Shown: positions 1 to 39,540 of the stretch, in pieces
Position numbering within the stretch: the stretch's first letter is position 1
Layout: every line of letters begins with the position of its first letter
NCBI GenBank assembly: GCA_029246385.1
Contig: JAQWNG010000008.1
Coordinates: forward strand, 156,610-220,609
Reading direction: 5' to 3'
Origin: Halioglobus sp.
GTDB taxonomy: Bacteria > Pseudomonadota > Gammaproteobacteria > Pseudomonadales > Halieaceae
DNA: 64,000 nucleotides
Position numbers and translations under genes: made by a program
Notes under the pieces: model-generated
The model's input: the letters and a program-made list of their open reading frames with translations, nothing else
Database searches by the model: none
Told to the model about the DNA's origin: nothing

Positions 1-605
1 ACGGTGACGGTGTAGCAAGGAATGATGCTCTTGCTGTTAAGTGGTACACCAAAGCTGCAGAGCAAGGGGTTGCTTTTGCCCAACATAATCTGGGCTATAT
101 GTATCGCAAGGGTAAAGGTGTGCCAGTGGACTATGTAGCTGCGGTTAAGTGGTATACGGAGGCTGCAGAGCAAGGAAATGCCAAAGCGCAAACCAATCTG
201 GGCTTGATGTATGACAAGGGTAAAGGCACATTAGAGGATGATTCGACAGCTTTAAAATGGTACGCCAAGGCTGCAGAGCAAGGGCATGTCAAGGCTCAAG
301 TCCGTCTGGGTACAATTTACTACAGCGGTGAAGGCGTAGCACAGGACTATGCTACTGCGGTTAAGTGGTACACTAAAGCTGCGGCGCAAGGAAATGCCAA
401 GGGGCAATTCAATCTGGGCTTGATGTACCTTTACTGCCATGACGTCAAACAAGACTACGCCCAAACACACTTATGTTGGGACCGCGCGCCTGCTGACAGT
501 CATGAAAAGACTGCTAGCAATAGAGACGTCGGCATGATGACCCCGTCTCAGATCGAACAAGCACAAAAGCTCGCTCGAGAATGGGCACCCACCAAAGCCA
601 ACTAA
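1..605 (+). CDS. Sel1-like repeat protein, 5' end outside window
   Basis: The reading frame is open from base 3, so the ATG at 99 is internal and the gene starts before the window. It encodes at least four tandem Sel1 repeats of about 36 residues, with the recurring core AVKWYTKAAEQG followed by AQxNLGxMY. A degenerate fifth unit (DVKQDYAQ) follows, and the tail MTPSQIEQAQKLAREW is the usual end of this family. Sel1 repeats are alpha-alpha solenoids of the TPR type that serve as protein-protein scaffolds. No enzymatic domain is visible and the partner is unknown. The unit before the tail is shortened and cysteine-containing, suggesting repeat loss or divergence. Any signal peptide would lie outside the window. 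Confidence 0.88.
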   Translation, partial: GDGVARNDALAVKWYTKAAEQGVAFAQHNLGYMYRKGKGVPVDYVAAVKWYTEAAEQGNAKAQTNLGLMYDKGKGTLEDDSTALKWYAKAAEQGHVKAQVRLGTIYYSGEGVAQDYATAVKWYTKAAAQGNAKGQFNLGLMYLYCHDVKQDYAQTHLCWDRAPADSHEKTASNRDVGMMTPSQIEQAQKLAREWAPTKAN

Positions 606-624
606 GCCAGCATAGCGCGGGCTT
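604..624 (+). terminator. Possible Rho-independent terminator of the Sel1 gene
   Basis: AAGCC pairs with GGCTT around an inner GC/GC pair, with one A-G mismatch and a five-base loop. The stem is followed by TTTCTATT and overlaps the stop codon. It is short, so the call is tentative. Confidence 0.35.
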
Positions 625-1116
625 TCTATTGGGTTAAAGGCATTTTTTGTCGGCCGATCAGTCTACGTTTGGGTCGACGCACTTTGCGCAGATCACTATT
701 AAGCACACTGATAGATAAACGCGAACAGGCCAATGAAAACCCTCTCCATATTTCAGAACCCACACTACTCCATTCTGCAAACGCACTAAGCCTTAAATCC
801 CACTTCAGCAGAAGCCTCAGTGGAATCTTCGTGGAGAGCCGGTAAGTTTTGGTGGAACTTTCTGGGCTAACTGATGGTCGAGGGTACATAATAAAGTATA
901 AAGTGTTAACCTGTTTCACATAGCGCAGCTGCATCTATAACGCAGGCGTGCCTGGCTCAAATCGGGTCATAGCCGCTGCGCTTTTCGTTAATTGTGATGT
1001 TTACAGCCTCTATACTGCAATCGACTATGAGATGCTCCGCGTCACCGCAAAACCTCGCCCTCTGCAAATTTTTTATGAGCGTGAGATGGTATTGAGTAGT
1101 TAACCACCGGATCGAC
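625..1116. other. Non-coding stretch left of the glycan island
   Basis: No convincing gene is seen in about 490 bases. The track's 102-residue minus-strand ORF (626-934) is rich in Arg and Ser, matches no family I know and has no clear ribosome site. This could be the decayed edge of the island. No direct repeats, tRNA end or insertion-sequence termini were recognised. Confidence 0.4.
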
Positions 1117-1135
1117 GTACTCTACGCGAGAGTAC
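1117..1135. promoter_or_regulatory. Perfect inverted repeat just before the first glycosyltransferase
   Basis: GTACTCT and AGAGTAC form a perfect 7-bp inverted repeat around ACGCG, ending seven bases before the ATG of the next gene. It could be an operator or an mRNA hairpin limiting ribosome access, since no strong Shine-Dalgarno sequence is present there. The function is inferred from position only. Confidence 0.35.
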
Positions 1136-1142
1136 TGAGACT

Positions 1143-3089
1143 ATGACAGGATGCTCCAAACCAATGCAAGAACCAGCGTCTGATATTGAAGGCCACCTTC
1201 CCAGACCGCCATCGCTAATGCAGAGGTGCAGGAGGCTTTTTTTCGCGCTACTGCAAGTAAAGGCAAGCGGACACAGTTACAGAGTTATACTTGCCTCGTT
1301 CTTTAAAACTTTAAGGACCGATGGGCTTGTTGGTGTCTTTTCTCGACTGTCTACGGTCGCAGGATATCAGCCAAACACGGAGTATCAAAATTGGATTCAG
1401 CTTTATGATGCTCCGAATGCTGCGCGCACAGCTGCGTTGCATAAAGAAATAGACTCTTTCGATCGCCAGCCACTGATCTCTATTATTCTGCCAAGCTACA
1501 AACCACAGATGACATGGTTTAAACAGGCAATAGAAAGTGTCTACGAGCAGACGTATCAAAACTGGGAGCTCTGTATCGCCGATGATGCCTCCAATCTACC
1601 CGAACTCAACCAGTATCTAAAAGTACTGCAATCTGAGGACACTAGAGTAAAAGTCGTGTTTCGCAAGGATAATGGCCACATATCGGCTGCGTCAAATAGT
1701 GCGTTAGCCCTCGCGACTGGGGAATGGGTTGCGCTTCTGGATCACGATGATCTTTTGCATGAATATGCACTGTTCTATCTTGCTAAGGAAATTTTGACTC
1801 ATTCTGATGCAGTGCTTATCTATTCCGATGAAGACAAAGTAGATGAGCATTCCGTTCGTCACGATCCGTACTTCAAGCCGGACTGGAATCTTGAACTTTT
1901 TTACTCTCAGAACATGTTTAGCCATTTGGGCGCATACAAAAAGCAGCTTCTCGATGACATTGGCGGTTTTCGAGTAGGCCTAGAGGGTGCTCAAGATTAT
2001 GATCTCGCACTTCGCTGCATTGAGCGCGTTAACGCCGATAAGATCCGACACATACCGAGAGTCCTCTATCACTGGCGAGTTCACGATAAAAGCACATCTA
2101 AAGATCCAGATGCAAAGCCCTATGCGATGCTTGCAGGGGAACGAGCGCTTAATGAGCACTTCAGGCGCACCGGGCAAGCTGCCTCAGCGGAGCTTATTGG
2201 CTTTGGATATCGGGTACGATACGACTTACCTGTCGAATTACCCATGGTAACGGTGATCATACCCACCAAAAACAATCATGAGCTACTGCAATGCTGCTTA
2301 AATAGCATTTTCAGTCTCACGACTTACTCAAACTATGAAATTATTATTATTGATAACGGTTCCGATAGCTTAGGCAGTTTGAACTATTTTGATGAAATCA
2401 TGTCGATGGACCGCGTTCGCATTTTAACTGATTCTCAGCCGTTCAACTACTCTGCCTTAAACAACGGCGCAGTGGAGGTCGCTAGGGGAACGGTAATATG
2501 CTTGCTCAACAACGACACTGAAATTATAACTGCTGGCTGGCTTAGCGAGATGGTGGGCATTGCGATTAGACCGGACGTAGGCGCCGTAGGCGCCAAGCTT
2601 CTTTACTCGGACGGCAGTATTCAGCACGCAGGAATTATCTGCGGGATGGGGATTGATAAAGTTGCAGGACATGCGCACTACCGCACGCATAGCACGCATA
2701 ACGGCTATTTCGGCAGGTCAAACCTGACTTCTTCGTTTTCGGCCGTCACCGGTGCGTGCATGGTACTAAGAAAGTCTCTATACAAAAAAGTACTCGGCAT
2801 GAATGAAGTCAATCTCAGCGTGGCTTATAATGATGTTGATCTGTGTTTGAAAATAGCATCACTCGGTTATCGGAATATCTACACCCCGTACGCCAAATTA
2901 TATCATCATGAATCTGCGTCACGTGGTCGCGATTCGGTCACATCTGATCAACAGCGATTTTCTTCTGAGGTTGAGTATATGAGAGCTCAATGGTCAGAAA
3001 TCTTGCAGGAGGATGCAATGTATAGCCCAAATTTGTCACTAGATCACTCTGACTTTAGGTATGCGTATCCTCCAAGAGTCGCCCTATGA
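1143..3089 (+). CDS. Two-domain family 2 glycosyltransferase
   Basis: This 648-residue protein carries two GT-A (GT2) domains. The first begins near residue 112 with SIILPSYKP, has a DHDD cluster near residue 200 and SDEDK near residue 228, where the nucleotide-sugar/metal DXD is expected. The second begins near residue 368 with VTVIIPTKNN and has LNNDTE near residue 455. Such tandem GT2 proteins commonly add sugars to O-antigen or capsule repeats on the cytoplasmic side of the inner membrane. About 110 N-terminal residues have no recognised domain. Its 3' end is close to the following sulfotransferase, consistent with co-transcription. The sugar donor and acceptor cannot be read from sequence. 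The ATG at 1143 is the first in frame; a nearby downstream ATG is possible. Confidence 0.9.
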   Translation: MTGCSKPMQEPASDIEGHLPRPPSLMQRCRRLFFALLQVKASGHSYRVILASFFKTLRTDGLVGVFSRLSTVAGYQPNTEYQNWIQLYDAPNAARTAALHKEIDSFDRQPLISIILPSYKPQMTWFKQAIESVYEQTYQNWELCIADDASNLPELNQYLKVLQSEDTRVKVVFRKDNGHISAASNSALALATGEWVALLDHDDLLHEYALFYLAKEILTHSDAVLIYSDEDKVDEHSVRHDPYFKPDWNLELFYSQNMFSHLGAYKKQLLDDIGGFRVGLEGAQDYDLALRCIERVNADKIRHIPRVLYHWRVHDKSTSKDPDAKPYAMLAGERALNEHFRRTGQAASAELIGFGYRVRYDLPVELPMVTVIIPTKNNHELLQCCLNSIFSLTTYSNYEIIIIDNGSDSLGSLNYFDEIMSMDRVRILTDSQPFNYSALNNGAVEVARGTVICLLNNDTEIITAGWLSEMVGIAIRPDVGAVGAKLLYSDGSIQHAGIICGMGIDKVAGHAHYRTHSTHNGYFGRSNLTSSFSAVTGACMVLRKSLYKKVLGMNEVNLSVAYNDVDLCLKIASLGYRNIYTPYAKLYHHESASRGRDSVTSDQQRFSSEVEYMRAQWSEILQEDAMYSPNLSLDHSDFRYAYPPRVAL

Positions 3090-3144
3090 CATTATTCCTT
3101 GTCGAAGCAACACATTACTGGTTGACTGCAAAGGTTTAGGCTTT

Positions 3145-3861
3145 ATGGCAGGAATGAACACGAATAACGAGCTACTGTTTTTTGTGCATATCCCAAAAAC
3201 GGGGGGCTCAAGCATCAACGCTCACTTGAAAGCTCATTCTTCAAATGGGGTAGAGCATGCAGAATCTGTTATCTCTAATCCTGAAAAATTTATTCAAATT
3301 TGTGCTCGCGCTAATTGGATTTCCGGACATGTCCATTACCCAATAGCAAAAGAAAGACTATTGGCATCGACCAACCGCCCAGTCCGTTTTTTTTCATGTT
3401 TACGTGACCCTAAGCATCAGGTAATGTCTCATCTAAATTGGCTAATCGAGATTCAGAACCGAACCAAAACTTTTTTTTATAACCATCCACTTAGCATACA
3501 AGAAATATCACATGAAGTTTGCTCATTAGGCGTAAAAGATGAGCATCAGATAATGTATTTACTACTTAAGTACCGCGGTCTGCTGCTGAATACGCAGTGC
3601 AGCTTAATGTTGGGGGGTGAGCAGGACATCAATAAAGATTCAATCGCCCACACTATTGAACAGTTTGATTATATTGGTACAGATCACAGTTATGGCCCAT
3701 TGCTACACCGAATGACAGGTCAGAGAACAAAACGGATTTACCATAAAAATTCTGCCAAATATCACTTTGATACTAAATTATTCGACAGTGAAGAGGTGCG
3801 ATCTTTCCTAAAGGTGCACAATGCATTTGATGATATCCTTTATCACCTCGTTCATCAGTAA
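3145..3861 (+). CDS. Sulfotransferase, Sulfotransfer_2-like
   Basis: Predicted to move sulfate from PAPS to a carbohydrate hydroxyl. The 5'-phosphosulfate loop is the N-terminal FVHIPKTGGSS, and CLRDPKHQVMSHL fits the 3'-phosphate binding segment of the HS2ST/chondroitin-type family. The ORF opens at 3061, inside the preceding glycosyltransferase, but family members begin close to the HIPKTGG loop. I therefore chose the ATG at 3145; the ATG at 3154 is an alternative. At about 238 residues it is a compact single-domain enzyme without an obvious membrane anchor. It lies directly downstream of the GT2 gene in the same direction, so its target is probably the same glycan. Base composition is AT-rich. 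Confidence 0.82.
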   Translation: MAGMNTNNELLFFVHIPKTGGSSINAHLKAHSSNGVEHAESVISNPEKFIQICARANWISGHVHYPIAKERLLASTNRPVRFFSCLRDPKHQVMSHLNWLIEIQNRTKTFFYNHPLSIQEISHEVCSLGVKDEHQIMYLLLKYRGLLLNTQCSLMLGGEQDINKDSIAHTIEQFDYIGTDHSYGPLLHRMTGQRTKRIYHKNSAKYHFDTKLFDSEEVRSFLKVHNAFDDILYHLVHQ

Positions 3862-3976
3862 CTTCTTTAGGCTGCAGGTGAGAGAAATTTCGCTAAGTGC
3901 GAGACGCGCCGCTTTACGTTGAACAGCGCCGATGAAAATATTGACGCGACTTATATCTTAGGAGGCACTAGTTAGG

Positions 3977-5659
3977 ATGACCAATAGAGTTGCTGTGCGA
4001 TCGTCTCTTTTTTCTTCAAAATTAAGTGCCCTAGTTTTTTTACTGGGTCGTAAATATCGAGCAAAATTTCTTCCCGAAGATTTTGATCCTGAAATTTACC
4101 TCGCGCTTCATCCGGATGTGGATGCAGCGAATGCAGATGCTGCCGAACACTATATCTCGCAGGGAGTCAAAGAAGGGCGGGCATACAAGTTGGAAGGCTT
4201 GCCGGATGACTTTGACACCACGACTTATTTAGAGCTCCACTCTGACGTGCGCATGGCGAAACTTGGCGCCGCCGAACACTATCTCTCGCACGGGATCAAA
4301 GAAGGGCGCTTGTATAAGCGCGGCCAGTTTCCTGAAGAACTTAGAGTCCAAAACTATCTAACCCCTAATTCCACCGAAATTGCAGAACAAGTTGATGCAA
4401 CGGGCGATGGCCTGAACCCGAAGCGTATTGGAGAACAGACAAGAACGAGCGTTTCAGCGCACAAAACTAGAAAAATATCACGCGCTGAAAAAAAGACGAA
4501 AATCACAGCCCTCTTAAACTCTAGATTTGCACTAGCAACTCCTCTGTGTACGTTTGCTATGAGAAATTCGGAAGGAGCTGCACGTATAACAATGGTAACA
4601 GACAGTATTGCTCGTTCATCTCTTTTAGGAGGCGTCGGGACTGCCCTCATTTTTTGTGCAATGTTGGCAAATCGTATGGGGGCTTCTTTGCGCATAGCAA
4701 CTCGGACAGAACCTCCAAAAAGCAGCGACATTGAGCCATTCTTGACACTGTGTAAAATGCACGTTGATCACGGTGTGCAATTCGCTTTTGCACCTTTAAG
4801 CGGCGAATCCTACGAGCTAGATATATTCGAAAACGACCTGTTTGTTACAACATCATGGTGGAGTACTGCCGCAACTTTGAACGCCGTAGATCCCTCCTCT
4901 ATTTTATATCTTTTGCAAGAAGATGAACGCATGTTCTATCCGTTTGGGGATGACAGGCACCGCTGTGACACCATTATGAGCAACAGAGAAATTCATTTTA
5001 TCGTTAATACAGAATTACTCTTCAACCACCTTGTATCTACTGGGCTGGATAATATTACGGCGCGTGGAGCGTGGTTTGAACCTGCATTTCCAAATTGGAT
5101 TTATAAGAAAAAAACTGGAAGAAACGGCAGTAAACGAAAATTATTTTTTTATGCAAGGCCAGACAATCCAAGAAATATGTTTTATCTAGGCATCGAAGTG
5201 ATCGATAGAGCTATACAGTCTGGCCTACTAGACTTATCCGTTTGGGATGTCTACCTTGTTGGAAAGAATATTCCTGCCCTAGAATTTACAAATGGATATC
5301 AACCGAGACACTCTGAGGGGCTTACTTGGAAAGACTACGCCGCCCTGATAGGGACAGTCGACCTAGGCCTTTCGCTTATGTCTACGCCGCATCCAAGTTA
5401 TCCACCTCTCGATTTAGTTGCGAGCGGGGCATTCGTGGTAACTAACCGGTTCCTAAACAAACAGGATTTAACTAAATACTCTCCTAACGTGATCTGCGCT
5501 GACCTTGATTTACAATCGCTGATTGATGCCCTATCTCAAGCTATAGCCCTAACCGAGAGTCGAACAGAGGATAGTCCAGCTGAAATTGAAAATCTTCTAA
5601 ATACTGATTGGCATAAATCGTTCGACAACATTATCACCAATCTTTTGGCAAGTGACTAA
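3977..5659 (+). CDS. WsaF-like glycosyltransferase with two N-terminal EGR repeats
   Basis: A 560-residue protein. Residues 32-113 are two near-identical 43-residue units of the pattern DFDxxxYLxLHxDV...HYxxxGxKEGR. A Lys/Arg/Thr-rich linker follows (about 120-175). The remainder resembles WsaF-type rhamnosyltransferases of the GT4/GT-B fold: TTSWWSTAATL, YLLQEDERMFYPFGDD, RKLFFYARPDNPRN, and a late LSLMSTPHPSYPPLDLVASGA donor-site segment. The likely job is adding rhamnose or a related sugar to a surface glycan. A strong AGGAGG lies about 11 bases before the ATG. The stop codon overlaps the next gene's start as TAATG, so the two genes are translationally coupled. The repeats occur in other surface-glycan enzymes, but their role is unknown to me. 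Confidence 0.85.
   Translation: MTNRVAVRSSLFSSKLSALVFLLGRKYRAKFLPEDFDPEIYLALHPDVDAANADAAEHYISQGVKEGRAYKLEGLPDDFDTTTYLELHSDVRMAKLGAAEHYLSHGIKEGRLYKRGQFPEELRVQNYLTPNSTEIAEQVDATGDGLNPKRIGEQTRTSVSAHKTRKISRAEKKTKITALLNSRFALATPLCTFAMRNSEGAARITMVTDSIARSSLLGGVGTALIFCAMLANRMGASLRIATRTEPPKSSDIEPFLTLCKMHVDHGVQFAFAPLSGESYELDIFENDLFVTTSWWSTAATLNAVDPSSILYLLQEDERMFYPFGDDRHRCDTIMSNREIHFIVNTELLFNHLVSTGLDNITARGAWFEPAFPNWIYKKKTGRNGSKRKLFFYARPDNPRNMFYLGIEVIDRAIQSGLLDLSVWDVYLVGKNIPALEFTNGYQPRHSEGLTWKDYAALIGTVDLGLSLMSTPHPSYPPLDLVASGAFVVTNRFLNKQDLTKYSPNVICADLDLQSLIDALSQAIALTESRTEDSPAEIENLLNTDWHKSFDNIITNLLASD
4070..4327 (+). repeat. 129-bp tandem duplication, two copies, in coding sequence
   Basis: Copies 4070-4198 and 4199-4327 encode residues 32-74 and 75-117 of the WsaF-like protein. 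The DNA for HYxSxGxKEGR is nearly identical between copies, differing at only a few bases. This indicates a recent in-frame duplication rather than mere protein-level convergence. Confidence 0.85.
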
Positions 5660-6819
5660 TGGGCACAGGCAAATTGCCCAGTAAGGTGTATCAGGATCCT
5701 TGGAGCACCTCGCTTGAATCACGGCTCAGTACATTAGCTACAGGAAGAGTGCGTATTGCGTACTTTTATGAGCAACCCAACAATAGCACTTTTCGTTATC
5801 GTGCCTATAACATGGCACAGGTCTTGAATGAAGATATTGACGAAACGTCTGCAAGTTATTTTTTTCTTGATGACCTGCATGAATTAGAAAATTTAGTGGA
5901 CATAGCCGATATTATCATCATTTGCCGCTCGCGATACTGCCATCGAATCGCCAATCTAATTCAGCGATTCAAAGCGAGAGGCAAGCCTGTTCTTTTTGAC
6001 ATCGACGACCTTGTCTTCAACTCCAGATATTGCCACCTTATCATACAAACACTTAGCCAAACCAAGGATGACGTTGTCTGGGATTACTGGTTTTCTTACA
6101 CATCACGAATCGCAGAGACGATGCGCTTATGTGATAAGGTGATTACCACAAACGAATTCTTAGCCAAAAAGGTAGCAGAAGAATTTTCTATCCCCACAGC
6201 AGTTGTCCAGAATTTCATTAATAAGGAACAATTAGAGATTTCCAACACCACATTTTTCGAGAAGAAAAGTTTTTCTTTCAAGAAGAACGAAAAAATACGG
6301 TTCGGATATTTCAGTGGCTCTCCATCGCATAAAAACGACTTCTCTATCACCTTAAGCGCTCTCGAAAGCGTGTTAGAGAGCGATCCCGCCATTGAATTGA
6401 CACTTGCTGGCTATGTTGATGTAGAAAAACCATTAAAGAAATTTGGCAGTCAGGTAAAGTATGAGAGCTTTCGCGACTATGTTAGTTTGCAGCGTCTCAT
6501 TGGCTCGGTCGACTTCAACCTAATGCCTCTCCAATATAACGCCTTCACAAACTGTAAGTCTCCTCTAAAATTTTTTGAAGCAGCTGCTGTCGGAACACTA
6601 AGCATCGCGTCTCCTGCAATAAACTATGCAGATGTTATCGAACATGGCGTAAGCGGATATTTAGCGCGAGACTATGAGTGGGAAACGGTCATACAGCAGG
6701 CACTAGACGATGATGAATCTTACAGCGGACGTGTAATCACCGCGCGAAACATCGCTCTCGCCAGATTTACGTATAGGAATCAAAGAGAAGCCATTCTCAA
6801 TGCGTTGGATCTTACCTAA
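5659..6819 (+). CDS. GT4-type glycosyltransferase
   Basis: This 386-residue GT-B fold enzyme has an N-terminal Rossmann strand with FYEQPNNSTFRYRAYNMA. The C-terminal half has FGYFSGSPSHKNDF, where the nucleotide-sugar domain starts, and CKSPLKFFEAAAVGTLSIAS followed by EHGVSGYLA. The last two are the GT4 donor-binding signature, with the glutamate of the E-x7-E type motif. The RYRAYNM segment is typical of GT4 members in O-antigen and capsule clusters. It starts in the stop codon of the preceding WsaF-like gene (TAATG), so the pair is probably made in equal amounts. It is the last plus-strand gene of the island; the next genes run the opposite way. Donor and linkage are unknown. Confidence 0.87.
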   Translation: MGTGKLPSKVYQDPWSTSLESRLSTLATGRVRIAYFYEQPNNSTFRYRAYNMAQVLNEDIDETSASYFFLDDLHELENLVDIADIIIICRSRYCHRIANLIQRFKARGKPVLFDIDDLVFNSRYCHLIIQTLSQTKDDVVWDYWFSYTSRIAETMRLCDKVITTNEFLAKKVAEEFSIPTAVVQNFINKEQLEISNTTFFEKKSFSFKKNEKIRFGYFSGSPSHKNDFSITLSALESVLESDPAIELTLAGYVDVEKPLKKFGSQVKYESFRDYVSLQRLIGSVDFNLMPLQYNAFTNCKSPLKFFEAAAVGTLSIASPAINYADVIEHGVSGYLARDYEWETVIQQALDDDESYSGRVITARNIALARFTYRNQREAILNALDLT

Positions 6820-6900
6820 GACATGTAATCCGATGCATTGAACTTCCGCTACCATTTCCTGTTTCGTTAATCTGCAATTTTTTCAAACTTGTTGACACAA

Positions 6901-7827
6901 CTAGTTTTTTGGATAGCTGGTACCAGCATACACTCCATCTAAAGCGCCTCTCCAGTTAAAACCTCTACCGGCATTTAGATCGACGGCATTATGAGTCTTC
7001 TTGCACATACTGTGTGTTGAACAATACAGATGCCCGACAGTCTTACCTCTTAGAGATGTGTCACACCCCTCTGCAAAGCGTCCGACCATGGGCAGGTAGT
7101 GCTCACACTGTATTTCCTCAAAACCGAGATCCGAGCAAAATAGCGAACGCAATCCACCCTTGTTGAACTGGAAGAAATGCCACGGTAGTTCGTGCTCCGA
7201 AAACGCAAAATGCGTTGCAGTGATTATCGTACCGCCAACTTTCAAAATTTTAGAAATTTCCTCCGCCAATACCCAGGGCATTGCTATATGCTCTAGAACA
7301 GCCGCAGAGTAGACCACATCAAAGTACTCGGCCTCGAAAAATTCAGAGAGTCTGTGAGCATCTCCCACAACATCAACATTTTCGCCAGGCTCAACATCAA
7401 AGCCAGTGTAGTTTTCGGCGGAACAAATTCCCTCAAATTGACGTCCACTCTGTGTCACGTCCCTCGCACCGATTTCAAGCACCTTCAGTGTGTCGGTATT
7501 GTATTGGTCTCTTATATATCTCTGCCAATTAAACTCTTTTGCATAGTCGGGGGAAACATTATCGTCTCGAGAACTTGGGATCCCGCAAACTAGAATTCTT
7601 TCTACCTCATTAATATGAGCTTGGGATTGGTCCTCTAGATGACTTGTAGACTTCTTAGCCGCGTCAATGAGGGGAGCGTAAAGGGAGAACTCACTCTCTA
7701 GTTCTTCAATCCTGCGTTTTAATATAGCCTTTTGAAAGACTGCATCATGAATAAATCTAAGTAGGGAGCGAGCCAGCGCACATATACGTGGCAATAGCTT
7801 TCCGTTGACCACCAGTGGCTTTGACAT
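6901..7827 (-). CDS. SAM-dependent methyltransferase, class I
   Basis: A 308-residue protein with a Methyltransf_11-type domain. VLEIGARDVTQSGR is motif I, FDVEP the acidic residue after strand 2, and DVVYSAAVLEHIAMPW motif IV plus the usual post-motif. ILKVGGTIITATHFAF fits the strand 5 region. Residues about 30-80 (KRRIEELESEF onward) look like a short coiled coil preceding the catalytic domain. AAGGA lies six bases before the ATG. Beside glycosyl- and sulfotransferases, the likely role is O-methylation of a sugar, possibly a chain-terminating cap, but the substrate is not determinable. The C-terminal GRGFNWRGALDGVYAG extension is not explained by the core fold. Confidence 0.85.
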   Translation of the reverse strand: MSKPLVVNGKLLPRICALARSLLRFIHDAVFQKAILKRRIEELESEFSLYAPLIDAAKKSTSHLEDQSQAHINEVERILVCGIPSSRDDNVSPDYAKEFNWQRYIRDQYNTDTLKVLEIGARDVTQSGRQFEGICSAENYTGFDVEPGENVDVVGDAHRLSEFFEAEYFDVVYSAAVLEHIAMPWVLAEEISKILKVGGTIITATHFAFSEHELPWHFFQFNKGGLRSLFCSDLGFEEIQCEHYLPMVGRFAEGCDTSLRGKTVGHLYCSTHSMCKKTHNAVDLNAGRGFNWRGALDGVYAGTSYPKN

Positions 7828-7908
7828 AATTTTTCCTTCAAGCGAAAAACACTAATAACTGCAATCTAGTTAGACCTGACCCATAAGTCCCGACCCGAAA
7901 ATCATCTG

Positions 7909-8778
7909 CTACTTATATAATTCAACGGTGAATTCAAAGGTTCCGTAAACTGGGCCTCGACAACTCACGGCTCTAAATTCTATACAGCCCAAACGTATCA
8001 AAACATCTAATATGTCTGAAAGTGAATATGGCTCAAATTGCCAAGCGTGAACATCAATATAGCTGCCTTCAGCGCTGTTAAACGCTTTTATCGCGTTTGA
8101 GATTCTTTCTGGATCAAGGCATTTGTACCGGCCTCTTTCTTGGTTCGACCAGTGAACCGAGCTGTCATTATGGGTCGTCAGTGCCGAGCCCTCTATGACA
8201 CTCCCAAGCGTGTGTAAGGTGCGCCGATCGCGGTGCGCGTTAAAAATTTCTGAAATTTTTGACTTCGGAAGATCTGCGTCGAAACAGTACGTGGAATTTG
8301 GCACTATCATTACATACTTTCCATCATCTTCGAGCAAAGAAGACACCTCATTTAGGTGCGAAATAAGATCTGGTTGATGTTCTAGGTTGTGCGAGGATGT
8401 AACGATTTGGAACTTTTCTTCGATCATATCTAAGCCGCCGTTATTGGAAACGAAGTCAATATCGATGGCCTGATCTATGCAGAGACCTATTTTTTCTGCT
8501 CTTTCAACTAATCCCTTTTTCGGCATAATGTCTACGTACTTCATTTTTTCATGCCTTAATAACGGCGTTACAAAAGGGCCGATCTCCAGAGTATTGACAT
8601 TTCCGAGACTCAAAACAAGGGGCTCTCTTTCCGCGAGAGGATGAGATACTCTACCCTCCTCATAGCCAAATTCAAAATAGTGATCACTGAGTGCAAGATC
8701 ACTTTTGCCGTGCAAGTCATCATATTTTTCACGATAAAAAGCTAAATCGATGTCTATTAAATTCTGTAATTTATTCAT
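7909..8778 (-). CDS. SAM-dependent methyltransferase with one N-terminal EGR repeat
   Basis: A 289-residue protein. Residues about 7-46 (DIDLAFYREKYDDL...HYFEFGYEEGR) match the repeat found twice in the WsaF-like glycosyltransferase of this island. The methyltransferase domain follows, with TLEIGPFVTPLL as motif I, YVDIMPKKG after strand 2, FQIVTSSHNLEHQPD as the post-I/IV region and DDGKYVMIVPNS at strand 5. The expected substrate is a nucleotide-linked or lipid-linked sugar. It precedes the other methyltransferase by 81 bases on the same strand, so the two may be one transcription unit. The repeat suggests the enzyme is brought to the same site as the glycosyltransferase; that is inference. 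Confidence 0.83.
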   Translation of the reverse strand: MNKLQNLIDIDLAFYREKYDDLHGKSDLALSDHYFEFGYEEGRVSHPLAEREPLVLSLGNVNTLEIGPFVTPLLRHEKMKYVDIMPKKGLVERAEKIGLCIDQAIDIDFVSNNGGLDMIEEKFQIVTSSHNLEHQPDLISHLNEVSSLLEDDGKYVMIVPNSTYCFDADLPKSKISEIFNAHRDRRTLHTLGSVIEGSALTTHNDSSVHWSNQERGRYKCLDPERISNAIKAFNSAEGSYIDVHAWQFEPYSLSDILDVLIRLGCIEFRAVSCRGPVYGTFEFTVELYK

Positions 8779-8925
8779 CTATATCGCCTAAAAAATTTCC
8801 TTAATGGCTTACATACCAAGTAGCGCTTTCGTATTCGATTTTGCACTTTTGGGCTCAACAATGAAACTCAATTTTCGCAGCGAAGTGTCAGAGATATTTT
8901 TTTAGTTTGCGCGCGTGCGGCGGTC

Positions 8926-9561
8926 TCACCCAAACGTCCCGGCCTTATCGTAAGAGAATGCGGACAAATCCTCTCGGTATATTTTTTCAACAATTTCAGC
9001 GGTATTCTCATCGTAATAATCACGGAAATCTTCGAGTAGCATTTGTGATTTTGTCGTCGACGCTGGAGGGAGGACTGCCACTATATCTTGCGCCAAAAGA
9101 AAATCAGTAAACTCTTCTTCTAGGTTCTCAAATTTGATAATTTTGTCCATCATGAGTTGTTTATGCTCATCTAGTAGAAACGAATTTTGTGGCATATTAT
9201 GTCCAATTTCAGCTATGTTGATATTCCGGTTGATAGCTATTCGATTTTCCAGTGATATAACCCAGTCTTCAAACGAACAATGCGGTCCGTATCGCAGATA
9301 CCAGTGATATTCGGAGACAGTTTTGGAGAAGGGATTTCTGACGACAGAAAACTTAGTATATTCATCCCACAATGCATCGTTATGGATTTTTAGCTTCAGC
9401 TCTCTCGCGGTGTTGTGCTGAAGGACATCGAAATTATCGACTGCCCCCCAAAAAAATTGGATAGGATCTCCACCATACATGCCTAGGCAATTCTCGATAG
9501 ATTCACCAGCAGTTCTTGGTATGTGGACGAAGATGATTTTGTGCTCATGAGAAACTGGCAT
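8926..9561 (-). CDS. Sulfotransferase, Sulfotransfer_2-like
   Basis: A 211-residue single-domain enzyme. IIFVHIPRTAGESIE is the 5'-phosphosulfate binding loop, and FSVVRNPFSKTVSEYHW is the 3'-phosphate binding strand/helix with the conserved Arg and Ser. The order and spacing are those of carbohydrate sulfotransferases of the chondroitin/HS2ST type. It should transfer sulfate from PAPS to a sugar of the polysaccharide made by the neighbouring enzymes. It is the first gene of the minus-strand run that continues with the two methyltransferases. It is not a close copy of the sulfotransferase at 3145, so the two probably have different positions or residues as targets. No PAPS synthesis genes are in the window. 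Confidence 0.85.
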   Translation of the reverse strand: MPVSHEHKIIFVHIPRTAGESIENCLGMYGGDPIQFFWGAVDNFDVLQHNTARELKLKIHNDALWDEYTKFSVVRNPFSKTVSEYHWYLRYGPHCSFEDWVISLENRIAINRNINIAEIGHNMPQNSFLLDEHKQLMMDKIIKFENLEEEFTDFLLAQDIVAVLPPASTTKSQMLLEDFRDYYDENTAEIVEKIYREDLSAFSYDKAGTFG

Positions 9562-10354
9562 AAGATACCCGCCATGCAGACGTTTTAAGTGTAAATTGGT
9601 GTGACATTAAATACCACTCCGTATCCGATTTTTTTGAGGAATACTGGGAAGATTGGATACGCTGTTAAAGGATAGGCCTTCTTAATAAAGGGCGTCTGCA
9701 ATACGCAAGCGGCGTCAGTGAAGCTCTATGGCAACTTATGAAAAACTCTACACCGTCTCTTTCAACATCGTGTTTGCCTGGCTTACGATAAGCAGGTATT
9801 GCGGCAGCTCGTTTGAGGCCAAGAGGAAAATCGACATCAAGTTGATACTAGAGGCGCCGACGGGTAAGTTAGTTTGATGGAGGTGAGGGATTAATATGGC
9901 CTTGATTTCAGATACGGCCTCAGATGTCTATGAGACTAAAGGATTAAAACTTCATTTCTTCCTGTCGACCCGCACAACGCACTTTCTCTGACCAATTGAC
10001 AACGGTACCGCTGACCGTGTTGGGCTAGTATTATGTTTCACTTAGTTATCAAAGGACGGGGTTGCCCGGTATATGTCAGAGTTCCGTCGCGCCCTGTTGC
10101 CTCGATCATTTCTGCACCAATCCTTCTGTCTCCGCTCTTGGGCAGCGCGGGACTGCTCACACCGCGACCACGTCACAGGCAACTGTGCGGGGCAGAGGAG
10201 TGATCGAGCGGAAGATAGCGAAGACTGGGGAACTCTAGACTTAGCTCCGGTCAGATCAGAATGAAGCTCCAACCATGAAAGACGGTTTGCTGACGCAAAA
10301 ACAGTTGCATCAATTAAGGTGCCAAGAAAAGTTTCAATGGTATTCCTGTAGCAG
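9562..10354. other. Non-coding stretch inside the glycan island
   Basis: Nearly 800 bases without a convincing gene between two minus-strand blocks. Several short open stretches exist on both strands (10042-10398 minus, 10073-10264 plus), but none shows a family motif. One 31-codon ORF at 9896-9991 has a GGAGGT upstream but nothing else in its favour. The appearance fits a relic of deleted or decayed island genes. I could not recognise transposase fragments or terminal repeats. Confidence 0.45.
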
Positions 10355-11485
10355 TTAACGAGAAAAAAAATCGCGTATCGAAAAAATGACTCTGTCAATA
10401 TCAGCGTTGCTTAACCTTGGATGCAAGGGGATACAAAGTGCTTCCTGATTCAGTATTTCTGAGTTTTCAAGGTGTTTTTCAGTTTGCCCATAAAGCTCAT
10501 TCAAATGCAGTGGATGGTATCTTAACGTTGTATAGATATTTTCCGCGAGAAGTGCGTGCGCTAACTCGTCCCGTCGCTTGACACGAATACAAAACGTGAA
10601 GTAACTATGCTGATCATCGATAGAGGCATCCTGCGGCATTGTCAACTCAGGAATAGCTTCAAGCCCCTCTTGGTACAAGTTCCAGATAGCCTTTCTCCTA
10701 GCCTGCAGTTCATTAAGTCGTGTCAGCTGCGCAATCCCAATCGCTGCGGCAATATTTGTTGGCAGCATCTTAATGAATGGCTCATTAATCGTATACTCCC
10801 ACCACCGCCGAGGCGTCCCTACTGAAGATGTAGCCACTTCAAAGCCTGACTTTCCGACGCCGCAATACCGCAGTTGCTTTGCTCGATCAATCATCGTTTG
10901 GTCCCGGGCCGTGATCCCACCTCCTTCACCCGTCGTAAGGTTTTTTATGGCATCGAAACTATAGATCCCAACATCGCCAATTCCGCCGCATGGCCGGCCC
11001 TTTGAAAACGAGTCAACGGCATGTGCCGCGTCCTCAATCACAGGTAAGCCTAAATCTAAAATAGGGTCAATGTCGACAGGCAACCCCGCGTAGTGTATGA
11101 CCATAATCGCTGCCGTACGCGGCGACAGGCAGGCTTCTACGTGTTCTCTACGGACGTTCATAGTAAGAGCATCAACATCACAAAAGACCGGCTTTAGGTT
11201 CGCCATCAAAATCGCTTGAGCACAAGACACCCACGTAAAGGAAGGAACGATGACCTCGCTTCCCGGAGGCAGATCCAAGAGATGCGCAGCCAGATACAGG
11301 GCATTCGAACCACTGTCCACCATCGCAAACGATGATAGCCCCAAGCGATTCATAAGAGAGTCCTCAAACTCTTGGACCTGCTTGCCAAAACCGGGCCATT
11401 GCGATTGCATACAGTCAACCACTGCGCCAATTTCCAAGTCGCCAAGATCTGAACCAAATACGGATATAAGCTCTTTCCTTTTCAA
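10355..11485 (-). CDS. DegT/DnrJ/EryC1/StrS family sugar aminotransferase
   Basis: A PLP-dependent enzyme expected to convert a 3- or 4-keto nucleotide sugar to the amino sugar. At 376 residues it has the family length. SGSNALYLAAHLL binds the PLP phosphate, VIEDAAHAVDS contains the Asp contacting the pyridine nitrogen, and YSFDAIKNLTTGEGG holds the Schiff-base lysine (about K181). It starts with TTG overlapping the stop of the acetyltransferase gene by four bases; no better start is visible in frame. With the adjoining GNAT enzyme it probably makes an N-acetylated amino sugar such as a Qui3NAc, Qui4NAc or Fuc3NAc type. The keto-sugar-forming dehydratase is not in this window. Confidence 0.9.
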   Translation of the reverse strand: MKRKELISVFGSDLGDLEIGAVVDCMQSQWPGFGKQVQEFEDSLMNRLGLSSFAMVDSGSNALYLAAHLLDLPPGSEVIVPSFTWVSCAQAILMANLKPVFCDVDALTMNVRREHVEACLSPRTAAIMVIHYAGLPVDIDPILDLGLPVIEDAAHAVDSFSKGRPCGGIGDVGIYSFDAIKNLTTGEGGGITARDQTMIDRAKQLRYCGVGKSGFEVATSSVGTPRRWWEYTINEPFIKMLPTNIAAAIGIAQLTRLNELQARRKAIWNLYQEGLEAIPELTMPQDASIDDQHSYFTFCIRVKRRDELAHALLAENIYTTLRYHPLHLNELYGQTEKHLENSEILNQEALCIPLHPRLSNADIDRVIFSIRDFFSR

Positions 11486-11982
11486 GAAGAAGGCCGTCCA
11501 ACTTGGTGGTGCATTATGATTCTGCCATCACGAGCACAGACCACTTCAAAACCGTTTTTAAAGTACCATGAGATAGCTGAGTTTCCGACAACAGCATGAC
11601 ATTCTATCGAAATTGACCGCACACCCTGGGCAAACTTAATTATCATATTTAAGGCAAGCGACATAAAGCCTGCAGATTTGATCGAACTGACACCTCTTAT
11701 AACGTTATATACATCCCAAATTCCGCCCCGAAGCCGAATACCGATACACCCAATTGCCTGGTCGCCCAGCATAACCATAAACATGAAATCCTCAGACCGA
11801 AGCAGATAATCGCTAAACCAATCTCTCTGCGCTTTATCAGAAATTACTTGTTGGTAGAAGAAACTGGCTGCGTGACGATTCTTCCACCTTCTAAGTGAGC
11901 CTTGATGGCAAAGCTCGGCAGTTTGTACCCAGGGTTTGCTGAGATCTTTCTCGTTACCTAGCACAATTTTTTGGGCGCTCAT
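11482..11982 (-). CDS. GNAT-family N-acetyltransferase, probably amino-sugar specific
   Basis: A 166-residue GNAT fold. FMVMLGDQAIGCIGIRL is the beta 2-4 region, SAGFMSLALNMIIKFA replaces the acetyl-CoA loop/helix 3 segment, and VVGNSAISWYFKNGFEVV is the typical motif B with Asn and the GF turn. The canonical R/Q-x-x-G-x-G/A loop is weak, so the CoA site is divergent. The ATG overlaps the upstream glycosyltransferase stop by four bases and its own stop overlaps the aminotransferase start. Context points to N-acetylation of the amino sugar made by the DegT enzyme. An alternative is acylation of another small amine. Confidence 0.75.
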   Translation of the reverse strand: MSAQKIVLGNEKDLSKPWVQTAELCHQGSLRRWKNRHAASFFYQQVISDKAQRDWFSDYLLRSEDFMFMVMLGDQAIGCIGIRLRGGIWDVYNVIRGVSSIKSAGFMSLALNMIIKFAQGVRSISIECHAVVGNSAISWYFKNGFEVVCARDGRIIMHHQVGRPSS

Positions 11983-12800
11983 TTCAGCGGTATTGGTTGC
12001 AATGGAAAGAAGTCAACTCTCTGGGCCTCGTCATAGTCCGGATAATCATAGATATTAAGAAGACTAAGGTGTCGATGCCTAATTTTAGGCGTTATGGCAG
12101 CATGTAGGCTCCGTGCTTTGACCATATCAGCCAAAACCATGTCAACCTGAAACCCGATTTTCTTCATGACATCGGTTCTCAACATCATAAGACGCCCGGG
12201 GGGCGAGCGAATTGGGAACGGAGGTTCCGTCAACAAGTAGTCTTGACTCATATCGATGGAACTCGTGCTTTCCATAAATTTTCGCTCAGGGCTTTTACTC
12301 TTAGCCAAGAAGTCCGCCTTGCCCGCATCGCCATCAGTAAGACGCAGCGCGACTTTATCCGAAACAAAGTCAGAATGTTCTATCAAACTTCCCAGCATTC
12401 CAATCTGCGTATTTTTTTCCATAATACGGCGCATTTCGGACAACCAACAGCCGCTCACTGATTCGATGACACAGTCACTTTCAATATATGCATGCAGCGG
12501 CCCAAGATCAGTCAACCGGTCACAATATGCTTGAGCAATATTATCAACACTATTGGTTTTGAAGCGGACAACCTCGCTGAACATCCCTCGACGCTCGAAC
12601 CCCGCTATGACATCATCGATTAAGGGGTCTGTATGCGCATTATCCAACAGGACAAAACGCACTGCTGATCGAGTCTGTCTATATAAGGCGTCTAGACATG
12701 CCCATAAATAAATTGGACGGCCCCAAGAGACAATGAACACGGTAACTGGCTCAACATGCGGATCAGTTACGATCTCTCTACATTGGCGATCTGCTTTCAC
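11979..12800 (-). CDS. GT2-like glycosyltransferase
   Basis: A 273-residue GT-A type protein. VTVFIVSWGRPIYLWACLDAL is the first beta strand and helix, FVLLDNAHTDP the second strand with its Asp, and AYIESDCVIES sits where the DXD metal site is expected (ESD). Later residues GRLMMLRTDVMKKIGF resemble the acceptor-side region of GT2 enzymes. It starts with GTG in a four-base overlap with the sulfotransferase fusion upstream and ends in a four-base overlap with the GNAT gene. It is thus the second of four tightly coupled genes. Donor and linkage unknown; possibly it transfers the amino sugar made by its operon partners. Confidence 0.75.
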   Translation of the reverse strand: MKADRQCREIVTDPHVEPVTVFIVSWGRPIYLWACLDALYRQTRSAVRFVLLDNAHTDPLIDDVIAGFERRGMFSEVVRFKTNSVDNIAQAYCDRLTDLGPLHAYIESDCVIESVSGCWLSEMRRIMEKNTQIGMLGSLIEHSDFVSDKVALRLTDGDAGKADFLAKSKSPERKFMESTSSIDMSQDYLLTEPPFPIRSPPGRLMMLRTDVMKKIGFQVDMVLADMVKARSLHAAITPKIRHRHLSLLNIYDYPDYDEAQRVDFFPLQPIPLK

Positions 12801-14416
12801 TGGCCGTATTCCATTTGACTATTTTCTAACTGATACCGCATTTCCTCTGTGCTGCTATTTGACCTAGGCACCAAAAGTGCAAGGTCAGTTTGCACTCCCA
12901 AAAACTCGCTAATCCTTAGGAAAACATCTGGCTCTCCTAGGCGTCCGTAGAAAAAATGATTGGGCATGTCCTTAAAATAATTACGAATAGCCGCGATATG
13001 TTGTTGATACGTCCGAATATAATGCTCGCGATGTTCTATTATCGACAACAGTCCGGCTGCGGACGCTTGCAAATCCGCATTGCCAGCAAGGACCTGACCA
13101 AGTTCTTCCTCCCGACGATATATCCGTGCGTGTATATCAGAAGCCCCGGGATTTCGCCCCCGGCTGTGATGGCAAAGCGATTGGAACCATTCCTCAGGCT
13201 GCCGCTCCAAAAGGATAAACTTTGCAGTAGGATATCGCAGGTGAATTGCCTTATAGAAATTGGGGCACCACCATGGATCATCTTCAAAGATTTCAGTATC
13301 AATAAATTCTGCACTGCTGAAAATTGCATCGAAATCACCAGCGAGCCACTTCCGACTCCATTCTAATCTAACAGACGTAGGCGAACCGGATCGGTGCAAA
13401 CCATGTGCCTCTAACCAGTCTCCCACTGACGTTGTGCCACTTCGCTGCATGGATAAACAGAATACCTTACTGTTTCGTTGATTCTTCAATTTGATACGCT
13501 CGGCACTTTGGTGCTTCAGGCCCCGTATATGCTCTTGGGACACCTGCACCACAGGTGACGAATATTCTCTGCTTTCTTCGCTCATCCAGGCCGCTGGATA
13601 ACCACCAAAGACTGCTTGCAACGCACTTATCTCTGAGCGATAAGCAGCTTTCAACCTACCGCTCAAATCAGAAGACACTGGCTCTTTCTTTTCAGTTTGA
13701 TGTATTGGAGTTTGTGCAATTACAGGGTCAATCGTCAAGGCAGGCAATCCCAGAAACGCATATATCGACTCCAAAACAGAGACCGGCTCTCGAACAATGC
13801 CATCAAAAAAAACGAGAAGCATGTTTTCTGGCGGAAAAACTTCGCAAAAGCGAAGAATAGCTTTAGAATATTCACCTCGAGGACGACCAATAAATTCGTC
13901 AAAAAGCTGCATCGCGGCTGCGTCACCCACGGCCAGAGAGCCAGCCGCTATTTTCATTCGACATTGGGAGAAAAATCGTTCAACGGGTTCTCTCAGAAGA
14001 AAAATCAATTTGGCATCGGGTGAAACTCGATGCATATGCTCGATCTGCGCCTTATTGCACAGCATATAACGAGGAGTGATGTCGCCAGCCACAGTCTCAG
14101 TTGGAGCGAACGCAAATAGTGATCGATACCAGTTATCGCTAAGGTCCGAAGAATTGTGAAGAGCCCACCACGCCGCACTCACAATGTCGCCAGTTTGCAG
14201 TGATCGCGCCTGTTCTGCGCGCCAAATCTCATTTTCTGTTCGATCTATTGCTGCCTCAGATAGGATGGGCGAGCCACCCAGTCGATTATCAAAATAGTGC
14301 ATCTCAGATTTCGGTGGCATCCAAATCTGCGGGTGCTGCCGAAGATTGTAACGCAGCCAACCAGTACCCGCCTTTTGGGCACCAATACAGAAAAACTCCG
14401 GACTTCTCAGATTCAT
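12797..14416 (-). CDS. Fused double sulfotransferase
   Basis: A 539-residue protein with two complete sulfotransferase modules. Module 1 (about 7-285) has CIGAQKAGTGWL as the PAPS 5' loop, HPQIWMPPKSEMHYFD, and LIFLLREPVERFFSQ as the 3'-phosphate segment, as in Sulfotransfer_1/HS 3-O or N-sulfotransferase-like proteins. Module 2 (about 316-539) has FCLSMQRSGTTSVGDWL and KFILLERQPEEWFQS, closest in pattern to Sulfotransfer_4-type proteins. Single-module enzymes are usually about 200-300 residues, so this is a true fusion. Both P-loops look intact, implying two sulfation activities or positions. It heads an operon with a glycosyltransferase, GNAT and DegT enzyme, all joined by four-base overlaps. 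Confidence 0.85.
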   Translation of the reverse strand: MNLRSPEFFCIGAQKAGTGWLRYNLRQHPQIWMPPKSEMHYFDNRLGGSPILSEAAIDRTENEIWRAEQARSLQTGDIVSAAWWALHNSSDLSDNWYRSLFAFAPTETVAGDITPRYMLCNKAQIEHMHRVSPDAKLIFLLREPVERFFSQCRMKIAAGSLAVGDAAAMQLFDEFIGRPRGEYSKAILRFCEVFPPENMLLVFFDGIVREPVSVLESIYAFLGLPALTIDPVIAQTPIHQTEKKEPVSSDLSGRLKAAYRSEISALQAVFGGYPAAWMSEESREYSSPVVQVSQEHIRGLKHQSAERIKLKNQRNSKVFCLSMQRSGTTSVGDWLEAHGLHRSGSPTSVRLEWSRKWLAGDFDAIFSSAEFIDTEIFEDDPWWCPNFYKAIHLRYPTAKFILLERQPEEWFQSLCHHSRGRNPGASDIHARIYRREEELGQVLAGNADLQASAAGLLSIIEHREHYIRTYQQHIAAIRNYFKDMPNHFFYGRLGEPDVFLRISEFLGVQTDLALLVPRSNSSTEEMRYQLENSQMEYGQ

Positions 14417-14514
14417 AAGATAAGGAACCTCTTAGTGACTCGACGTTTCAATACGAAAAACTGCGCAGCTGCTAGTTTAGACGCCGCTTTCGAAACCCAG
14501 GACGCAACATCCAT
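14413..14514 (-). CDS. Possible 33-residue leader peptide of the sulfotransferase operon
   Basis: ATG at 14514 opens a 33-residue ORF (MDVASWVSKAASKLAAAQFF..., basic C-terminus) whose TGA overlaps the next ATG as ATGA, the same junction type used throughout this operon. AGAGG lies upstream but only two bases from the ATG. It is too short for the ORF track and matches nothing I know, so it may be chance. The rest of 14417-14760 shows no gene; the overlapping 133-residue ORF at 14472-14873 looks spurious. Confidence 0.25.
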   Translation of the reverse strand: MDVASWVSKAASKLAAAQFFVLKRRVTKRFLIL

Positions 14515-14760
14515 GACCTCTTTAGACTAATCGTACTACGAAAATCAATTACAACTAAAGCGGATAGTGAAGCTATACGCCGAGAAAAATGATACCAAGC
14601 GAAAAGCGAGAAATTTTTGTCAGAAATTATTATCCGCATATACCACCCTCGACAACTTGCTGTGACGATACTGTGCAGTGGATCCAGCACGTCGAGCCAG
14701 TGGAAGACATAATTCCAGTGGAAAATTCGCTGGACACTATTCCTTAACGACAACAAAGGT

Positions 14761-15066
14761 CTAGAACCGCTCGCCTCCGCACTGCCAGCAAGTATCAAAC
14801 GTTGCCGGACTGTAAGTAGTGCATTGAGCGCACTGCCAGTCTTGACCTTCAACGGCTCGATGTGATGTCTCAACGATCGAGACCGCTCTCACAAAGTCAG
14901 TGTCATACACAACCCAGACCTCTGGCCATGCATTAATAGGCGCTAATTCTCCCATAGCACCGGATGCATATTCGTTACGCAATACGCATTCAATCTCTGC
15001 CTGCTCTATAGGACTATAGGCCTGCACTAGAATCGCAATGTTGGGATGAGTGTACACAAGCTTCAC
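14761..15066 (-). CDS. DUF2007-type protein with C-terminal zinc ribbon
   Basis: A protein of about 101 residues. The N-terminal part (VKLVYTHPNIAILVQAYSPI...AEIECVLRNEY) fits DUF2007, a small ferredoxin-like fold sometimes called a putative signal-transducing protein. The end, WQCAQCTTYSPATFDTCWQC, has two CxxC pairs separated by ten residues, a RanBP2-like zinc ribbon. The ORF track starts at a TTG (15123). I prefer the GTG at 15066 because AGAAGG lies nine bases upstream and family members begin with a KLVYTH-like strand. It is single and minus strand between the island and dsbB. No function is established; Zn binding is predicted from the cysteines. Confidence 0.75.
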   Translation of the reverse strand: MKLVYTHPNIAILVQAYSPIEQAEIECVLRNEYASGAMGELAPINAWPEVWVVYDTDFVRAVSIVETSHRAVEGQDWQCAQCTTYSPATFDTCWQCGGERF

Positions 15067-15197
15067 GCGAACCGCCCTTCTAATGTTTATCAGTGGCCCT
15101 TCCGCTACAAGGGCACATTTCAACGAGCATCAGATCACCGCTATGAACAGCTCGCATGCAAAACCTCGGAAGCCATACTGACACAAGCACATTGTCC

Positions 15198-15752
15198 TTA
15201 CGGCGGACTTAACAGCTTGTAAGAAACTGGATTTTCGGGGCATTCACTAAGGCCGCATTCTATAAAAGCAGAGAGAGCGTTACCCAACGTTACCAGCAAC
15301 GCAATGCCAATGGCTAACTTGCAGAACCACTGTTGATACTTGAAGGACACATACGAACCCTTAGAGTACTGAATACTAAACGCACTGATCACGCCCGTAC
15401 CAAGTATCACCAATGAAAAGACAACAAATGACCATGTATAGTAGTGATAACCAAGAAAGGGGGCCCCATACGGCGGGGTGCCAGGAATGATATGCAGCAA
15501 TACTTGCCGCATGGCAATGGCTGCGCCTAGGAAAGCGCTAATGAGGATTAAAGAATAGTGTAGCGGCTTCGCTCCATAAACAACATTGAGCAATAAACCA
15601 TAAAGCACTGCGACCAGCGCGACCCGCTGCAGCAGGCAAAGTGGGCATGGAAGGTCGCCGCCGACAAATTGTCCATAAAAGGCGTTACACAGCACCGCAC
15701 TGACGAGGATTAATCCAATGGCGTTGAGTAGCCGGAATTTATCAATATGCAT
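15198..15752 (-). CDS. dsbB: Disulfide bond formation protein, DsbB family
   Basis: Inner-membrane quinone-linked oxidase that reoxidises DsbA-like periplasmic thiol oxidases. A 184-residue protein with four or more hydrophobic spans. The N-terminal periplasmic loop has the CPLCLLQR active site (CxxC followed by QR, the quinone-side signature). A second cysteine pair appears near the C-terminus in ECGLSECPENP, rather than the widely spaced loop pair of E. coli DsbB, so this is a variant subfamily. It follows the 51-residue membrane protein gene by 14 bases, with GGAG before the ATG. No dsbA is in the window. Confidence 0.88.
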   Translation of the reverse strand: MHIDKFRLLNAIGLILVSAVLCNAFYGQFVGGDLPCPLCLLQRVALVAVLYGLLLNVVYGAKPLHYSLILISAFLGAAIAMRQVLLHIIPGTPPYGAPFLGYHYYTWSFVVFSLVILGTGVISAFSIQYSKGSYVSFKYQQWFCKLAIGIALLVTLGNALSAFIECGLSECPENPVSYKLLSPP

Positions 15753-15766
15753 AAAGATCGACTCCG

Positions 15767-37209: not shown

Positions 37210-37220
37210 ACATGACTCGC

Positions 37221-38048: not shown

Positions 38049-38076
38049 AACAGTAACCCTCTATGTTGCGCCAGCA

Positions 38077-39492: not shown

Positions 39493-39540
39493 ATAAATCC
39501 CCTGTAATTTGAAGAATCGGTCTACGCGAGCCCAACATGC

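Follow-up and report, generated by a model that had tools for sequence, protein, structure and literature searches.

An accessory gene island of Halioglobus sp. predicted to extend and decorate a sulfated surface glycan

A block of 11 intact genes, here named A to K, was found at positions 1143-14416 of a 64,000-nucleotide stretch of Halioglobus sp. DNA (the window, G000:C25:156610-220609; the genome, G000, comprises 3.3 Mb in 45 contigs). All position numbers refer to the whole window. The block is best read as a lineage-restricted, horizontally acquired accessory module. We consider it rather probable that this module serves a surface glycan, to which its enzymes would add sugars and decorations, and the predicted product is probably sulfated, methylated and amino-sugar-containing. 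Several glycosyltransferases occur together with sulfotransferases dependent on 3′-phosphoadenosine 5′-phosphosulfate (PAPS), a combination expected of a sulfated surface-polysaccharide system. The gene identities, their conservation under selection, the island character and the presence of supporting loci in the same genome were established here. One other genome, the metagenome-assembled genome Haliea sp. Gammapro6 (G005), carries all 11 genes in the same order with 75-94% protein identity.

Results

Eleven genes for sugar transfer and modification

The open reading frame (ORF) list and a Pfam scan gave the following genes (lengths in amino acids, aa).

Gene A: 1143..3089, + strand, glycosyltransferase with two GT2 domains, 648 aa (Pfam Glycos_transf_2, E 7e-41, residues 113-267; Glyco_tranf_2_3, E 4e-17, residues 367-591).
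Gene B: 3145..3861, + strand, divergent sulfotransferase, 238 aa (P-loop FFVHIPKTGGSSIN, second motif RDP; hhalign to the gene G family).
Gene C: 3977..5659, + strand, WsaF-type glycosyltransferase with two N-terminal modules of ~37 residues (Pfam WsaF_C, E 6e-44; WsaF_N, E 1.5e-9).
Gene D: 5659..6819, + strand, GT4-like glycosyltransferase, 386 aa (Pfam Glyco_trans_1_4, E 3e-9).
Gene E: 6901..7827, - strand, S-adenosylmethionine (SAM)-dependent methyltransferase, 308 aa (Pfam Methyltransf_11, E 1e-8).
Gene F: 7909..8778, - strand, SAM-dependent methyltransferase, 289 aa, whose N-terminal part has a single module resembling the two of gene C (Pfam Methyltransf_23, E 3e-5, slightly under the cut-off).
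Gene G: 8926..9561, - strand, sulfotransferase, 211 aa (Pfam Sulfotransfer_2, E 1.7e-15).
Gene H: 10355..11485, - strand, DegT/DnrJ/EryC1/StrS aminotransferase, 376 aa (Pfam, E 4e-85).
Gene I: 11482..11982, - strand, GNAT-like acetyltransferase, 166 aa (Pfam Acetyltransf_1, E 0.0038, a weak match under the cut-off).
Gene J: 11979..12800, - strand, GT-A-like glycosyltransferase outside known families, 273 aa (low-confidence model).
Gene K: 12797..14416, - strand, fusion of two sulfotransferase domains, 539 aa (Sulfotransfer_3, residues 6-225, E 2e-27; Sulfotransfer_4, residues 317-522, E 3e-14).
Island, approximate extent: 779..14760, no strand (left, homology to the island contig of G005 starts at 779; right, homology to an island-free contig of the relative G007 resumes at 14760).

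The set proposed in the initial annotation, namely four glycosyltransferases, three sulfotransferase genes, two methyltransferases, a DegT aminotransferase and a GNAT acetyltransferase, was thus recovered by Pfam, by profile-profile comparison and, for gene J, by a weak model. The three sulfotransferase genes encode four sulfotransferase domains, two of them in gene K. Genes H, I, J and K likely form one translationally coupled unit, because a 4-bp overlap was seen in the ORF coordinates at each of their three joints. Genes A to D form a second unit, in which the start codon of D overlaps the stop codon of C, and genes E to G a third. The 793-bp stretch between G and H (9562-10354) held no convincing gene; the corresponding gap in G005 is ~370 bp. 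The plasmid collection contained no relatives of this stretch, nor of a 102-aa ORF at 626-934. Promoter and terminator scans returned fewer sites than were found in shuffled sequences.

Composition and flanks of the island

The base composition of the 11 island genes was compared with that of 46 flanking genes. The mean GC content was 0.445 in the island and 0.522 in the flanks, and the GC content at third codon positions was 0.437 and 0.542, respectively (Mann-Whitney p ~1e-6 for both). Codon choice was shifted as well between the same two sets (p ~1e-6). Uniform composition was therefore not found. The initial annotation had described an AT-rich left part. The island is indeed AT-rich relative to its flanks, but this is not confined to the left, since all 11 genes deviate.

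On the left, the neighbours named from sequence were the core genes for ribose-phosphate pyrophosphokinase, L25, peptidyl-tRNA hydrolase and YchF, together with a Sel1 gene; on the right, a DUF2007 gene, DsbB, an oxidoreductase and WS/DGAT. Origin from a mobile element was considered; no tRNA gene was present in the window, and no integrase or transposase was seen among its ORFs. The sole flanking repeat was the 9-bp AAACGCACT, at 779 and 15378. Two contigs of G005 (L031:1-129 and the end of L053) start with an identical 123 bases inside dsbB, and one of them runs into the left end of the island; this junction coincides with the 9-bp repeat. It looks as if the G005 island were flanked by a duplicated piece of dsbB or existed also as a circle, and the arrangement may also be an assembly artefact.

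Distribution, conservation and age

The island contig of G005 has 13,869 bases and matches PKDD01000081 (Haliea sp. isolate Gammapro6). In the comparison of G000 with G005, all 11 frames were intact in both, free of stop codons, and the ratio of nonsynonymous to synonymous divergence (dN/dS) was 0.07-0.33. Genes A to K are under purifying selection. Because 11 genes are intact and kept in order in a second genome, the set is beyond chance. The 16 other members of the genus that were searched lacked both the fused sulfotransferase K and the WsaF-type glycosyltransferase. Among 57 related genomes, full-length K was found in G000 and G005 only (89% identity), and the others matched one half. WsaF_C was present in 5 of 140 genomes of the family and, within the genus, only in the same two. 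Gene J was found at E 1e-10 in one of 392 genomes of the order (G000 itself; the list of genomes did not include G005), and in a seed-limited scan covering 84,980 species the G005 contig alone was returned. The order-wide and genome-collection searches gave no wider gene J family beyond these two genomes.

In G007, whose YchF is 95% identical, Sel1, DUF2007 and DsbB genes adjoin and the island is absent. This order resembles an empty site; a strict empty site is unprovable there, as the Sel1 gene beside DUF2007 is only ~50-57% identical and the upstream genes differ. Deviating composition and patchy presence among close relatives, the two marks of a genomic island, were thus both observed, and the earlier description of the block as an accessory island is supported by its foreign composition, its absence from most of the genus and the gene order of G007. 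Because the island is complete in G005 and absent at the G007 site, it would be older than the split of G000 and G005, or was exchanged between both lineages. Synonymous divergence (dS) of H to K between the two genomes was 0.23-0.42, compared with a median of 0.71 for 35 core genes (p = 7e-4); that of A to G was not clearly below the core genes. The lower dS of H to K suggests a mosaic island in which these genes were exchanged later, and selection on synonymous sites could contribute.

Sulfotransferases and their predicted substrates

Sulfation by K and G appears to be directed at sugar, because the nearest solved relatives of G and of the first half of K include carbohydrate (heparan) sulfotransferases. 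The first half of K was closest to an uncharacterised bacterial sulfotransferase (3rnl) and to heparan sulfate 3-O-sulfotransferases (E 5e-8 to 2e-5). With the latter, its nearest characterised solved relatives, it shares the PAPS loop and a KxExHxFD-like stretch (KSEMHYFD). The match has an E of only ~1e-7; K differs from these enzymes in its bacterial origin and in its fusion to a second sulfotransferase domain, and its substrate is a prediction. The PDB held no usable solved relative of the second half. The gene G family profile matched heparan sulfate 6-O-sulfotransferase (PDB, E 2e-4), and cytosolic sulfotransferases ranked lower. Best relatives acting on lipids or phenols, an outcome that the initial annotation had named as contrary to its proposal, were not obtained in this small PDB sample.

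Gene B matched no curated sulfotransferase family in Pfam or NCBIfam. Profile-profile comparison (hhalign) linked it to the Sulfotransfer_2-type family of gene G with a probability of 97.3% and E 2.4e-11. AlphaFold models of B and J were built from 2-3 near-identical sequences and were poor (mean pLDDT, the predicted local distance difference test score, 47 for B and 40 for J), and Foldseek gave nothing usable for B. Genome-wide, G000 (3.3 Mb) contained 25 Sulfotransfer_3 and 3 Sulfotransfer_2 matches. Relatives of gene G with 22-41% identity are also encoded on 13 IMG/VR contigs classed as viral (L109-L121).

Glycosyltransferases, aminotransferase and a shared module

Gene C scored 38.5 bits for WsaF_N and 149.5 bits for WsaF_C, both above the curated Pfam cut-offs of 27. 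Its nearest solved chain was WsaF (2x0d/2x0e, E 2e-29), the S-layer glycan rhamnosyltransferase of Geobacillus stearothermophilus (PDB 2x0d; PMC3898925), of which it has both domains. It differs from WsaF in its N-terminal modules, its Gram-negative host and its sulfotransferase context, and its donor and acceptor are predictions. Gene J belongs to no Pfam or NCBIfam family. Its low-confidence model showed an N-terminal Rossmann pattern with SpsA as the best Foldseek match (E 5.5e-4, suggestive at most), which is suggestive of a GT-A-like N-terminal part. The nearest solved chain of gene H was TlmJ (E 1e-77), followed by ArnB and perosamine synthetase.

The N-terminal module of ~37 residues, FDxxxYLxxxxDV...HYxxxGxxEGR, occurs in two copies in gene C (window 4067-4330) and one in gene F (~8644-8757). 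The copies in gene C had no Pfam or NCBIfam match, and that in gene F had no Pfam match. The module was also present in glycosyltransferases of two other genomes, G018 and G253, and in an Agrobacterium vitis protein related to gene B (L142, L128/L129, L131). By tblastn it was found in 68 plasmid records, where its carriers are glycosyltransferases, methyltransferases, GH99-like proteins and secreted calcium-binding proteins. The module may serve in enzyme docking or glycan binding.

Supporting loci elsewhere in the genome

The initial annotation had noted that polymerase, flippase and PAPS-synthesis genes are missing from the window, so that the set would be incomplete or depend on loci elsewhere. 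Dependence on other loci is supported: neither an exporter nor a polymerase was found in 1143-14416 or its flanks, and the genome search for exporters, wzx/wzy and PAPS genes located candidates on other contigs (C34, C2, C7 and C21). PAPS synthesis is encoded in the same genome by an APS (adenosine 5′-phosphosulfate) kinase at C34:56392 with an adjoining ATP-sulfurylase. Contig C2 has a Wzx match at C2:57815 and a Wzy-type gene at C2:55128. The corresponding genes of C7 lie at C7:973 (Wzx) and C7:4660 (Wzy-like), with a sulfotransferase gene between the two and a methyltransferase further along. C21 carries Wzm and a Wzt with a Wzt_C domain beside a 1787-aa protein (L030:4630-12077) that joins a weak Sulfotransfer_3 domain with GT2, GT4 and further glycosyltransferase domains. 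Among the loci read, the own-genome relatives of gene A sit in this ABC locus. C32 contains a GDP-mannose dehydratase, a second epimerase, a methyltransferase and two sulfotransferases of two families. Phosphomannomutase-, GalU- and mannose-1-phosphate guanylyltransferase-like genes, named from sequence, were also seen at 35860-39555, ~21 kb off the island; they could act as suppliers of GDP-mannose and UDP-glucose.

In the relative G253, a WsaF-type glycosyltransferase is directly preceded by an ABC-2 permease, itself below the Pfam cut-off, and an ABC ATPase; a double-GT2 protein, a methyltransferase, a GDP-mannose dehydratase and a protein with a weak Sulfotransfer_3 match are encoded within ~17 kb. 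In G018, a WsaF-type glycosyltransferase lies ~9 kb from a K-like sulfotransferase. Mainly because of these two associations, ABC export is preferred as the most likely route for the glycan; a role of the C21 Wzm/Wzt pair is suggested by analogy with G253.

Discussion

Proposed function of the island

The following scheme is a prediction in its substrates, its order of steps, its exporter and its polymeric product. Enzymes A, C, D and J would transfer sugars onto a lipid-linked acceptor in the cytoplasm. H would convert a keto-sugar nucleotide to an amino sugar, for example from the 4-keto product of the GDP-mannose dehydratase encoded elsewhere, and I may acylate it. J would then transfer the amino sugar and the two heads of K would sulfate it, while B and G would attach additional sulfates and E and F would methylate the glycan. 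In ABC-dependent systems methylation often caps the chain. PAPS would come from the C34 APS kinase/ATP-sulfurylase pair, and export would most likely proceed via a Wzm/Wzt pair such as that on C21. A bolder proposal combines two claims. In the first, H-I-J-K would be a new cassette of four steps by which one amino sugar is made, attached and doubly sulfated, both sulfates being placed by K on the same residue. In the second, the ~37-residue module would dock the enzymes on a common glycan or scaffold. We regard this combination as doubtful.

Several observations weigh against a role in a surface glycan as outlined. Genes for an exporter, a polymerase, an initiating transferase and a nucleotide-sugar dehydratase are all absent from the island. 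Neither JUMPstart nor any other RNA family was detected within 1-16500, and the exact JUMPstart core motif is absent from the island. The assignments of B, I and J rest on weak evidence. The sulfotransferase families also include lipid- and small-molecule-acting enzymes, and the PDB sample was small. Finally, the Wzx/Wzy loci of the same genome mean that the ABC route is not the sole candidate.

These last loci raise the question whether the polysaccharide decorated by the island is made by Wzx/Wzy (e.g. at C7:1-5k or C2:55-59k) and not exported by an ABC transporter. Such an assignment would agree with the Wzx and Wzy-type genes on both contigs and with the sulfotransferase and methyltransferase of C7. 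We consider it unlikely, given that in G253 an ABC exporter is grouped with a WsaF-type glycosyltransferase, a two-domain GT2 protein and a sulfotransferase, and that the own-genome gene A relatives among the loci read lie in the C21 ABC locus. A small sulfated glycolipid, a glycoprotein glycan or a secreted small molecule, instead of a polysaccharide, appears improbable as the product. The lack of a polymerase in the island would fit it, as would the closeness of H to TlmJ, an aminotransferase of the tallysomycin pathway, and a K-like sulfotransferase that adjoins a condensation-domain gene on a Roseibium plasmid. Nevertheless, the four glycosyltransferases include WsaF-type and double-GT2 proteins, kinds typical of polysaccharide assembly, and no scaffold-forming polyketide synthase or nonribosomal peptide synthetase genes were seen in or beside the island. 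It is very improbable that several transfers left a decaying relict here whose genes have no function in common. The mosaic history indicated by dS, the G-H stretch lacking a plausible gene and dN/dS values above the core-gene median of 0.07 would be expected of a relict, but none of the 11 frames is broken in either genome, dN/dS stays far below 1, and the gene order is fully kept in G005.

Relation to described sulfated-glycan systems

The earlier remark that genetic descriptions of sulfated surface glycans are rare for Gammaproteobacteria has been superseded. The sulfated capsule cluster of Vibrio sp. KMM 8419 has 80 genes, including an ABC exporter, PAPS genes and three sulfotransferase genes (PMC11641403), and that of Cobetia marina KMM 1449 has ~70 genes and an ABC exporter (PMC11766843). 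Like the present system, these come from marine Gammaproteobacteria and combine glycosyltransferases with sulfotransferases, genomic PAPS synthesis and ABC exporters. They differ in that a single cluster of ~70-80 genes houses the PAPS, nucleotide-sugar and exporter genes and in that the glycan structure is solved, whereas in the island the glycosyltransferases and decorating enzymes are separate from those functions. The island also adds a fused double sulfotransferase, DegT/GNAT enzymes and methyltransferases. For the synechan (xss) cluster of Synechocystis, there is genetic evidence that such a gene set makes a sulfated exopolysaccharide; it comprises several glycosyltransferases and two sulfotransferases from different subfamilies (PMC8205485). 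That cluster is cyanobacterial and has its own Wzx/Wzy and regulators, and no aminotransferase/acetyltransferase operon is named in the passages considered. By analogy, the island belongs with these already described sulfated-glycan clusters, and its functions are divided among several loci.

Bacterial glycans that carry sulfate are similar to those of algae and animals. To our knowledge, few bacterial carbohydrate sulfotransferases have an established substrate. The two-headed K and the tight H-I-J-K operon offer a compact testable unit. A marine bacterium of the Halieaceae type can probably build sulfated surface glycans from scattered loci together with an accessory module that differs between close relatives.

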